A DNA stretch of 64,000 bases. It comes from Candidatus Gastranaerophilales bacterium. GTDB lineage: Bacteria; Cyanobacteriota; Vampirovibrionia; Gastranaerophilales; Gastranaerophilaceae. The notes beneath the pieces are model-generated. The model did no database searches and was not told the DNA's origin. It was given only the letters and a program-made list of their open reading frames with translations. Positions 42,057 to 44,417 of this stretch are shown here, one piece after another. Location: the NCBI GenBank assembly GCA_944324385.1, contig CALUWD010000003.1, forward strand, positions 1 to 64,000, in the 5' to 3' direction. Both the position numbers and the translations under genes were made by a program. The first letter of the stretch is position 1. Each line of letters starts with the position of its first letter.

Positions 42057-44417
42057 TTATTCGTATCTAATCCAGTAGATATATACATATCCGCTTTGTC
42101 CTGACGCACCGCCTCCTGGGCCTGAGTCAGACGAGGCTGTGGATTTCCAGCCTCCGCCTCCGCCGCCTGAGCCTGCGGAGCCAAATTGTTTAGTTGTGTT
42201 TGGTGTAGTAGGTGCTGCAAATGGCGTATTGTTGCCTTGAGATGCAGGATTTGTGCAGTCAGCATCCGTGCTAAAGCCGCCGCAGCCGCCTTTTGTGTTT
42301 ATTCCTGATTTACCGCCTAATCCTCCTATGGATATTGCGCCTAATTGTTGTCCTGCACTACCTGCCTCACCCAGTTTTATTAGTTTTGCAGGTATGTTTG
42401 TTGCGCCTACTGCGCCACCAAGTCCGTGTATTGCTGCAGATGTCTGTGTTCCTGCGGTTCCTACTTTGCCTGCGCCACCGCCACCTAATGTGTAAGTTCC
42501 GCCTTCAAAGCTTATTGAACTTACGCCACCGTCGGCACCGTCGCGGTTTACTGCGCCACCGTTGCCACTGTTGCCAACTTTGATGGTGTATGTTTTTTCA
42601 GGTATTACTGGTAAGTTTTCAAGAATTGCATATGAACCGCCTGCGCCACCGCCACCTGAGGCTGCTTGATAGCTGGAGTCATAAGCAATTGAGGCAACGC
42701 CGTTTGCACCTGTGCCACCTGTACCTTCTTTGGGGTTGCCTGATGAGTCAAAGCCTACAGTTGCGCCACCGCCTCCTGCACCGTTTTTATTTGTACTGCC
42801 ACCATTTACGCTTGATGCACTACCGCCTGCGCCACCGCCACTAACGTTTGATGTAACGTATGACGCGCCGCCGCCTGTGCCGCCTGTTGCTGCAGTTGTT
42901 TCGTTTGCTCCTTCAACTTTTGTGCCATTAGTACCTGCGGTGCCTGCGCTTGTGCAGTTTGTAGCGCTCCATGAAGTGCCATTGTAGATTTGGCAACTAT
43001 TTAGGGAGTTTTGCGCACCGCCTGAACCAAAGGATGTTGTTGTTGCGCCTTTTCCGCCTTTACCCCCAGGGGCTTTTAAGCCCCAGACAAGTGTGTTTGA
43101 GCTGTTGTATACGTAGATATAGGATTCTGAACCGTCATTGCCATCGCCTGAGCTTTTGCCTGTTCCGCCTGCGCCTGATGACATTACAATTCTACCGCCG
43201 ACCGCTGAATCTATAATGTTTTGAGGGATTATGTAGTTACTGATGTATGGTGCGCCACCGCCGCCACCACCTGAGAGGGAGATGTTGGAGGGGCCTGCGG
43301 CTTCAAGCACACAGCGAACCGAATCGGCGTAGCGAGGACTCTGACTGAACTGATTGAAGCTACCAGTGTACAGGCCGAAATAGTAGTAATTGCTACCACT
43401 GGGTGTAGACGACCAGACCCAGCCCGGGTAGCAATTACCACTCGACCCGACGCAAACGGTGTAAACGTAGCATCGCGCTGCGCCGTAACCGCTGTAGTAG
43501 TCACAGAGCCTCAAGCCATTGTCACCTTTGTTTTTGTTAATAGTGTTAATGTTGCTTGCCCACTTAGATAATTCATTTTTAGTTGGTAATCTCCAGTCCC
43601 CTGCTTTTGTGCCATTATATGCTAATGCTTGACATGATGCGTTACCGGCGTACCATGTGCATACTGTTCTGTTGCAACCACTGTAACTAGTTCCAGAGCT
43701 ATCGCATGGGCTTGCAGTTTTTCCTTGCCAACAGCATGCGTTAGCATAGCAACTCCTGTTAGTTTTAACAGTTATAACACTTGCTGCTATCCCGCCATTT
43801 GGTGCATTAGGGATATCGCCAATATTCCATTTTGTAACACATACAGGTGTTCCATTTTGCTCAGCTGTTAAAAATTTCGCATCATACTTATCGCAATCCG
43901 CCTGAGAGGTCGGTGCGCCGCCACCTGAGCTTTGCGTATATGCGCCTGCACCGCCACCACCGCCTGCACCAGAAAGATAGAGAACATATACGTTTCTCAT
44001 ACCTTGGAATATATTAACAGTTTTAGTAGATGCTGTTGTTAGGGTTTCAACATTACCGTAAGTGATATTAGGATTAGTAGCGCCCGCGCCGCCACCTCCG
44101 CCTGATACCATTATAGCGTTTAAAAATTTTACTCCCTTTGGTACTTTAAAATTACAAGTTACAGTATTATCAGAAGAATTTGAGCACTCTGGTGGTGGGG
44201 ATGAAGTTGTGTATAAAATATTTTCGTATTTAGCGCTTGAGCTTGCATTGCCTGATATTGCAGTTTGTTTTTTCCTGACAACAGGAGCCAGAACAACCAT
44301 AATAATGGATGAAATAAGCAGAATAACAAGTAATTCGGCCAAGGTAAAGCCGAAAACCTTTTGCGAAATTTGCGCATTTGAATTGCGCTTTTTCGCCAGA
44401 CGCCCTCCGGAAAGCAT
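42057..44417 (-). CDS. Large glycine-rich prepilin with internal C-type-lectin-like domain
   Basis: The 786-residue protein begins with a prepilin leader ending KVFG, then FTLAELLVILLISS with Glu at +5. The exported part holds, in order: a Gly-rich segment (104-165) and a Cys-rich lectin-like/DUF1566-type domain (about 200-371, with CNRTVCTWYAGN, GDWRLPTKNELSKW, WSSTPSGSNYYYFG and DSVRCV). About 400 residues of Gly/Ser/Thr-rich repeats (SGGGGGGAPY, GGGGAGGS and similar) follow, ending SGYVYIYWIRYE. Codons for residues 301-381 are GC-rich, unlike the rest. The domain resembles targets of diversity-generating retroelements. Likely a surface adhesin or minor pilin. It is paralogous to the 41441 gene and follows the hybrid-cluster-like gene by 91 bases. 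Confidence 0.85.
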   Translation of the reverse strand: MLSGGRLAKKRNSNAQISQKVFGFTLAELLVILLISSIIMVVLAPVVRKKQTAISGNASSSAKYENILYTTSSPPPECSNSSDNTVTCNFKVPKGVKFLNAIMVSGGGGGAGATNPNITYGNVETLTTASTKTVNIFQGMRNVYVLYLSGAGGGGGAGAYTQSSGGGAPTSQADCDKYDAKFLTAEQNGTPVCVTKWNIGDIPNAPNGGIAASVITVKTNRSCYANACCWQGKTASPCDSSGTSYSGCNRTVCTWYAGNASCQALAYNGTKAGDWRLPTKNELSKWASNINTINKNKGDNGLRLCDYYSGYGAARCYVYTVCVGSSGNCYPGWVWSSTPSGSNYYYFGLYTGSFNQFSQSPRYADSVRCVLEAAGPSNISLSGGGGGGAPYISNYIIPQNIIDSAVGGRIVMSSGAGGTGKSSGDGNDGSESYIYVYNSSNTLVWGLKAPGGKGGKGATTTSFGSGGAQNSLNSCQIYNGTSWSATNCTSAGTAGTNGTKVEGANETTAATGGTGGGASYVTSNVSGGGAGGSASSVNGGSTNKNGAGGGGATVGFDSSGNPKEGTGGTGANGVASIAYDSSYQAASGGGGAGGSYAILENLPVIPEKTYTIKVGNSGNGGAVNRDGADGGVSSISFEGGTYTLGGGGAGKVGTAGTQTSAAIHGLGGAVGATNIPAKLIKLGEAGSAGQQLGAISIGGLGGKSGINTKGGCGGFSTDADCTNPASQGNNTPFAAPTTPNTTKQFGSAGSGGGGGGWKSTASSDSGPGGGASGQSGYVYIYWIRYE
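43277..43517 (-). other. GC-rich block in the lectin-like domain, candidate DGR variable region
   Basis: This tract encodes residues 301-381 of the large prepilin. It uses C/G third positions heavily (TAC, GGC, CGC, TTC, TCG, CTG), while flanking codons are AT-rich. The part for residues 340-370 (43308-43400) has many AAY, TAY and AGY codons and ends in the conserved VRCV, where retroelement-targeted lectin domains vary. It could be a copied-in variable repeat or a recombined segment. Without a template repeat the assignment is unproven. Confidence 0.5.

Follow-up and report, generated by a model that had tools for sequence, protein, structure and literature searches.

Does the 786-residue prepilin encoded in the contig segment studied here belong to a diversity-generating retroelement (DGR) whose enzymes lie elsewhere? 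The segment, hereafter the window, comprises 64,000 nucleotides of contig C3 of a metagenome-assembled genome (G000; 1.69 Mb, 99% complete, 42 contigs) from the Gastranaerophilales, a gut lineage whose members are uncultured and have small genomes. The first-pass annotation had read the gene as a DGR target on account of its C-type-lectin-like domain. Analysis of the genome and its relatives leads us to conclude, with a probability of about 0.9, that the window protein is targeted in trans by a DGR.

Architecture of the window prepilin

The N-terminus showed the class III signal of type IV prepilins, i.e., Gly/Ala followed by FTLxE and a hydrophobic helix, and its N_methyl score in the genome scan lay above the Pfam cut-off (Table 1). 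Pfam searches placed Lcl_C/DUF1566 at residues 230-370, with an E of 7.7e-6 that does not reach the curated cut-off, and Gly_rich_2 at residues 585-782 (E 6.8e-10). The domains and the order initially read from the sequence, a prepilin start, glycine-rich parts and a DUF1566/C-type-lectin-like domain, were borne out by the ORF, N_methyl, Pfam and the AlphaFold2 fold alike. The description of the lectin as lying in the middle of glycine-rich repeats was right as to order and needed correction, as two parts of one scaffold (about residues 62-160 and 376-786) flank it.

Table 1. Positions of features in the window and of related motif copies
Feature	Position	Strand	Basis or remark
Neighbouring short prepilin, 182 aa, with similar N-terminus and glycine-rich C-terminus, without lectin insert and VR	41441..41989	(-)	Pfam, N_methyl scan
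Prepilin ORF, 786 aa, glycine-rich scaffold with inserted C-type-lectin-like domain; probable DGR target	42057..44417	(-)	ORF, Pfam, AlphaFold2 model
C-terminal part of glycine-rich scaffold, 3' of VR	42060..43292	(-)	Gly_rich_2, model; predicted Pam3 fibre-like, Z 21.4 over whole scaffold
Inserted C-type-lectin-like (DUF1566/Lcl_C) domain	43293..43925	(-)	Profile, fold; present in 10 paralogues too
Variable region (VR), residues 305-371, homologous to both template repeats	43305..43505 (about)	(-)	DNA search, template alignment
IMH-like 3' end of VR: TTCGGTTCGCTGTGTGCTT in window copy, ...CGCTGTGTCCTG in templates and most targets	43305..43323	(-)	
Type IV prepilin N-terminal methylation segment (G/FTLAELL and hydrophobic helix)	44289..44354	(-)	N_methyl 22.8 bits; predicted helix, residues 26-52
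Downstream 3' motif copies, one per species in three species	L029:4512; L144:5574; L150:4996	(-)	

A full-length AlphaFold2 model calculated with 22 family members had a pLDDT of 72 and was usable; a model of the lectin part with 38 relatives reached a pLDDT of 88. Structure comparison of the lectin part alone revealed a C-type-lectin-like fold, with similarity to the C-terminal domains of Bdellovibrio Bd2740 (Z 9.6) and Legionella Lcl (8q4e; Z 8.8) and to the Treponema variable protein 2y3c (Z 8.2); in a PDB sequence search, the lectin domain was without match. With the lectin omitted, the modelled scaffold (residues 62-786) aligned over 198 residues with the fibre of cyanophage Pam3 (Z 21.4, 2.2 A). 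The tail tip of Bxb1 matched with Z 16.9, and a weaker similarity (Z about 9) was seen to glycine-rich domains of ALK/LTK. Because of these fold matches of scaffold and lectin, the lectin is predicted to interrupt a glycine-rich, fibre-like body carried on the prepilin helix. The neighbouring short prepilin is built like the target at both termini but has no lectin insert, and may therefore be a non-variable partner.

The VR occupies residues 305-371 of 786 and so lies in the interior of the gene, away from its 3' end; a gene-terminal VR, described as near-universal in PMC7517822, is a common, not a defining, feature of DGR targets. Another loop, residues 217-241, is variable as well; it was rejected as a further VR, since its codon-level variation had neither a template nor an inverted codon pattern. 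Within the VR, positions 43382-43442 form an imperfect inverted repeat (GTAATTGCTACC ... GGTAGCAATTAC; 75% match to its own reverse complement over 61 bp), which is probably a chance product of rewritten codons.

Reverse transcriptase, Avd and template repeats

The genome scan revealed two reverse transcriptases (RTs). One, at C8:73728-74906 (-), matched RVT_1 with E 6.5e-16 and carries the SQ motif IGNLTSQ, which fits the (I/V/L)GxxxSQ motif defined for DGR RTs (PMC3521204). Its best PDB match, 8ub7 (E 2e-33; next match 2.8e-6), was far ahead of group II and retron RTs, and its placement in the DGR clade is based on the SQ motif and this match. We take 8ub7, named in the PDB only as 'Reverse transcriptase', to be the structure of the BPP-1 DGR RT. 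Overlapping the RT start is an Avd-like gene (C8:74881-75273, -; 130 aa), which matched NF033474 (E 2.5e-8) and bAvd (E 1.4e-7), both below the curated cut-offs, and was without match in a PDB sequence search. The second RT (C2:95354-95917) was rejected as a DGR RT, since it is nearest to RTs of the retron St85 type (NF038233, E 5.2e-36, under the cut-off).

Two template repeats of ~205 bp, containing 60 and 54 adenines, were located near the RT (C8:70758-70964, -) and at C19:1074-1280 (+). Both loci are short, only the 205-bp core is matched by targets, and their flanks are shared: a 5' leader of ~165 nt and a short 3' tail are near-identical at the two loci and in two species, whereas the core differs. 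A search of the leader against Rfam returned no known RNA family, the sole above-threshold match nearby being a tRNA. The tRNA gene adjoins the RT-side template (C8:70400 region; L029:4335-4407) and is possibly the site of a past insertion. About 250 nt downstream of the RT-side template, a copy of the 3' motif (TTCGG[TC]CGCTGTGTCCTGGAG) is followed by a terminator-like hairpin, an arrangement kept in three species. The notion that the templates mutate each other was dropped, the TR-to-TR differences not being adenine-limited.

RT, Avd-like gene and both templates are thus situated on other contigs of the same genome. This agrees with the remote (trans) action that had been proposed for want of an RT in the window, and the target claim, which was to fall if the genome held no template repeat or DGR RT, is not refuted, both being present.

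Adenine-directed variation in eleven targets

A DNA search with the segment singled out by the first-pass annotation gave 13 strong matches in the genome, which correspond to eleven lectin-bearing prepilin-type genes, that of the window included, and the two templates; at these 13 places, the template/VR homology spans identical ends only. The window gene is accordingly not a lone target, since it is one of eleven. When all eleven VRs were compared with the nearer template, 263/632 adenine sites differed versus 148/1583 other sites (p=1.5e-63; the p values of these comparisons treat sites as independent), with mismatch rates by template base of 0.42 for A, 0.08 for C, 0.10 for G and 0.10 for T. 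A control segment of the target genes, residues 61-300, showed no adenine excess (ratio 0.92). The RT-adjacent C8 target differed at 20/60 A and 1/141 non-A sites, the C23 target at 25/60 and 5/142. Inside the VR, the variability of codon positions 1 and 2 was similar to or higher than that of position 3, which leads elsewhere; such a pattern, confined to the surroundings of the VR, would be expected if AAY codons are rewritten. The VRs have a mosaic appearance, with more than one template represented, and several targets break at contig ends of the assembly.

In the window copy, 18/52 template adenines and 17/147 other sites differ from the nearer template (p=3.6e-4), an adenine bias weaker than in the other targets. 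The expectation of a near-copy differing only where the template has A holds as to the bias and fails as to 'only'; with RT, Avd and two template repeats in the genome and mismatches concentrated at template adenines, the reading of this copy as a target stands. Pooling the five known templates of the genus, the same base or A covers all but two of the non-A differences in the window. The 3' end of its VR, CGCTGTGTGCTT, carries two changes relative to CGCTGTGTCCTG in the templates, and three other targets of the genome have the same changed end; it is IMH-like, and a corresponding role may be presumed by analogy with phage BPP-1. The 17 non-A differences and the two changes in the IMH-like end weaken the case for recent homing at the window copy, which is best read as a target of an older or third template, or as one brought in by gene conversion.

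A sister species has two templates in corresponding neighbourhoods and ten targets. Its RT-adjacent target (C1:209327) is without the sequence of the adjoining template and instead corresponds to a template some 190 kb away (C1:17075), from which it differs at 14/50 A and 0/155 non-A sites. This match implies trans action and, for a natural target/template pair, is clean evidence of it. VR variation was compared between species-level orthologues in nine syntenic pairs. In eight of them, 43-59% of the template-A columns and 7-25% of the other columns differ; the ninth is the window locus, with 54% and 42%, respectively. Orthology of the window locus is established by its shared flanks (PNPase 95%, next genes 87%). 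The sister orthologue of the window VR differs from the templates at 28/50 A and 67/149 non-A sites, its template match having been lost.

In the RT-adjacent target of G000 (L029:6371), one base is deleted immediately ahead of the 3' motif (TTCGG-TCGCTGTGTCCTGG), and the deletion was likewise found in G009, G002 and apparently G012 (L057, L056, L152); ~440 codons past the deletion remain open in another frame. In G014, a Candidatus Gastranaerophilales genome that is a close relative with 97% RT identity, the RT-adjacent target has an intact frame and its VR matches a template through the deletion site. The deletion could reflect decay, programmed frameshifting or a homing-driven switch. We consider it improbable that a genome-wide variable-pilin panel exists in which one RT-Avd and a two-template pool with shared leader RNA serve eleven unlinked prepilins and in which, in addition, homing turns the cassette-adjacent target on or off by covering or missing this frameshift before the 3' recognition motif.

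Possible mechanism, rival explanations and related systems

The components seen in the sequences, that is RT, Avd-like gene, templates, targets, adenine bias and trans matching, would fit together as follows. As in known DGRs, RT-Avd would copy the template RNA with errors opposite adenine, and the cDNA would replace the VR in any target having the shared 3' motif, irrespective of its location. Up to about 37 lectin codons would change, with the Cys, Trp and Gly frame kept. Judging from their families, the prepilin peptidase and the pilus-type (T2SSE-type) ATPases present in the genome would process the targets, and the cell would display a set of variable lectins, each borne on a glycine-rich stalk with a pilin anchor. 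Also by family, the variable lectins probably bind glycans or other cells in the gut, and the cell could probably go on altering its surface binding. We infer the biochemical steps, current activity, pilus assembly and ligand binding; the fibre-tip position and binding role suggested early on for the window protein may likewise apply.

The window copy might be a former target, diversified by the DGR in the past and now out of reach, changing by drift or by gene conversion from paralogues. The 17/147 non-A differences, the changed 3' end and the departure of the sister-species orthologue from the template fit such a history, and so does the lectin part just before the VR, whose identity to paralogues (79-93%) is far above that of the surrounding scaffold (about 50-60%) and from which an exchange of the domain between genes is deduced. 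Against it speak the intact reading frame, the occurrence of the same 3' end in three other targets and the coverage of all but two differences by the five templates, and we regard it as unlikely. The same island of high lectin identity in divergent prepilins, together with mosaic-like VRs, would also be produced by recombination among silent or paralogous cassettes of the Neisseria pilE/pilS type with no retroelement involved; such recombination would not yield mismatches limited to template adenines (20/60 versus 1/141; 14/50 versus 0/155), nor does it account for two non-coding-type template loci, a DGR RT and Avd, which makes it very improbable. We give almost no credence to ordinary fast-evolving lectin paralogues under positive selection; the domain family is indeed multi-copy in two genera, but selection does not track the adenines of a separate template, and outside the VR there is no adenine effect.

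Even with DGR targeting accepted, the prepilin helix could serve as an inner-membrane anchor or as part of a type II secretion-like pseudopilus, without pilus display. Usual pilins are far smaller than 786 aa, and the similarity of the modelled scaffold is to the heads of phage fibres and to glycine-rich domains of ALK/LTK, not to the globular domain of a pilin. On the other side, 10/18 prepilin-type sequences of the genome lie in DGR targets, and pilus-type machinery is present. This possibility is a real one, if somewhat unlikely, and we continue to prefer pilus-displayed trans targets.

The Bordetella phage BPP-1 DGR (RT, Avd, TR, and VR in Mtd) is alike in its SQ-motif RT, Avd-like protein, adenine-directed TR-to-VR differences, conserved GC-rich VR 3' end and C-type-lectin-like target; here, by contrast, the system is in a cellular genome, with eleven unlinked targets, two templates, a mid-gene VR and a prepilin as target. 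Multi-target DGRs of photosynthetic cyanobacteria (Trichodesmium, Nostoc), from the same wider phylum-level group, also have remote targets with the C-type-lectin fold, yet their VR matches are exclusively near gene 3' ends and most of the proteins are predicted to be cytosolic and regulatory (PMC7517822), in contrast to the internal VR and the prepilin targets of the present system. DGR diversification of the tip pilins of type V pili in Bacteroides is reported by Macadangdang et al. (as cited in PMC12632263); insofar as that citation conveys, these pilins share a DGR-diversified binding domain on a pilin of a gut bacterium, but are FimA-like lipoproteins of Bacteroidota and not type IV prepilins of Melainabacteria. 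Treponema denticola TvpA (2y3c), a DGR-diversified surface lipoprotein, and the C-terminal domain of Legionella Lcl (8q4e), a collagen-like adhesin, share the C-type-lectin-like fold and are without the prepilin N-terminus.

In the open-access literature, to which our search extended, no DGR was found reported for Melainabacteria/Gastranaerophilales and none joined with prepilins; 'putative pilin structures' are tied to DUF1566 in a single mention in one survey (PMC6642488). The system is a DGR, and what is new in it is that a prepilin, an internal VR, a glycine-rich fibre scaffold and a two-template pool occur together; DGRs are thus able to diversify a domain inserted within a longer protein. 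Surveys restricted to the RT neighbourhood overlook remote targets of this kind, and Roux et al. 2021 (PMC8144416) state that their own RT-neighbourhood method misses them. With ~11 genes of 2.4 kb, some 1.5% of the 1.69-Mb genome would be given to variable surface proteins.

Scans of viral contigs with target and RT returned no relatives and no strain-level copies. The DGR RT family was found in 14/58 relatives, fragments counted, and the lectin-domain profile was positive in 18/192 genomes of the order. The arrangement recurs in a second genus of the family (G159), where a template adjoins the RT and the prepilin targets are remote, with up to 26/29 mismatches at template adenines. Some of its prepilins on C17 and C20 (L174, L175) have two lectin domains each, and their two VRs match the single RT-side template.
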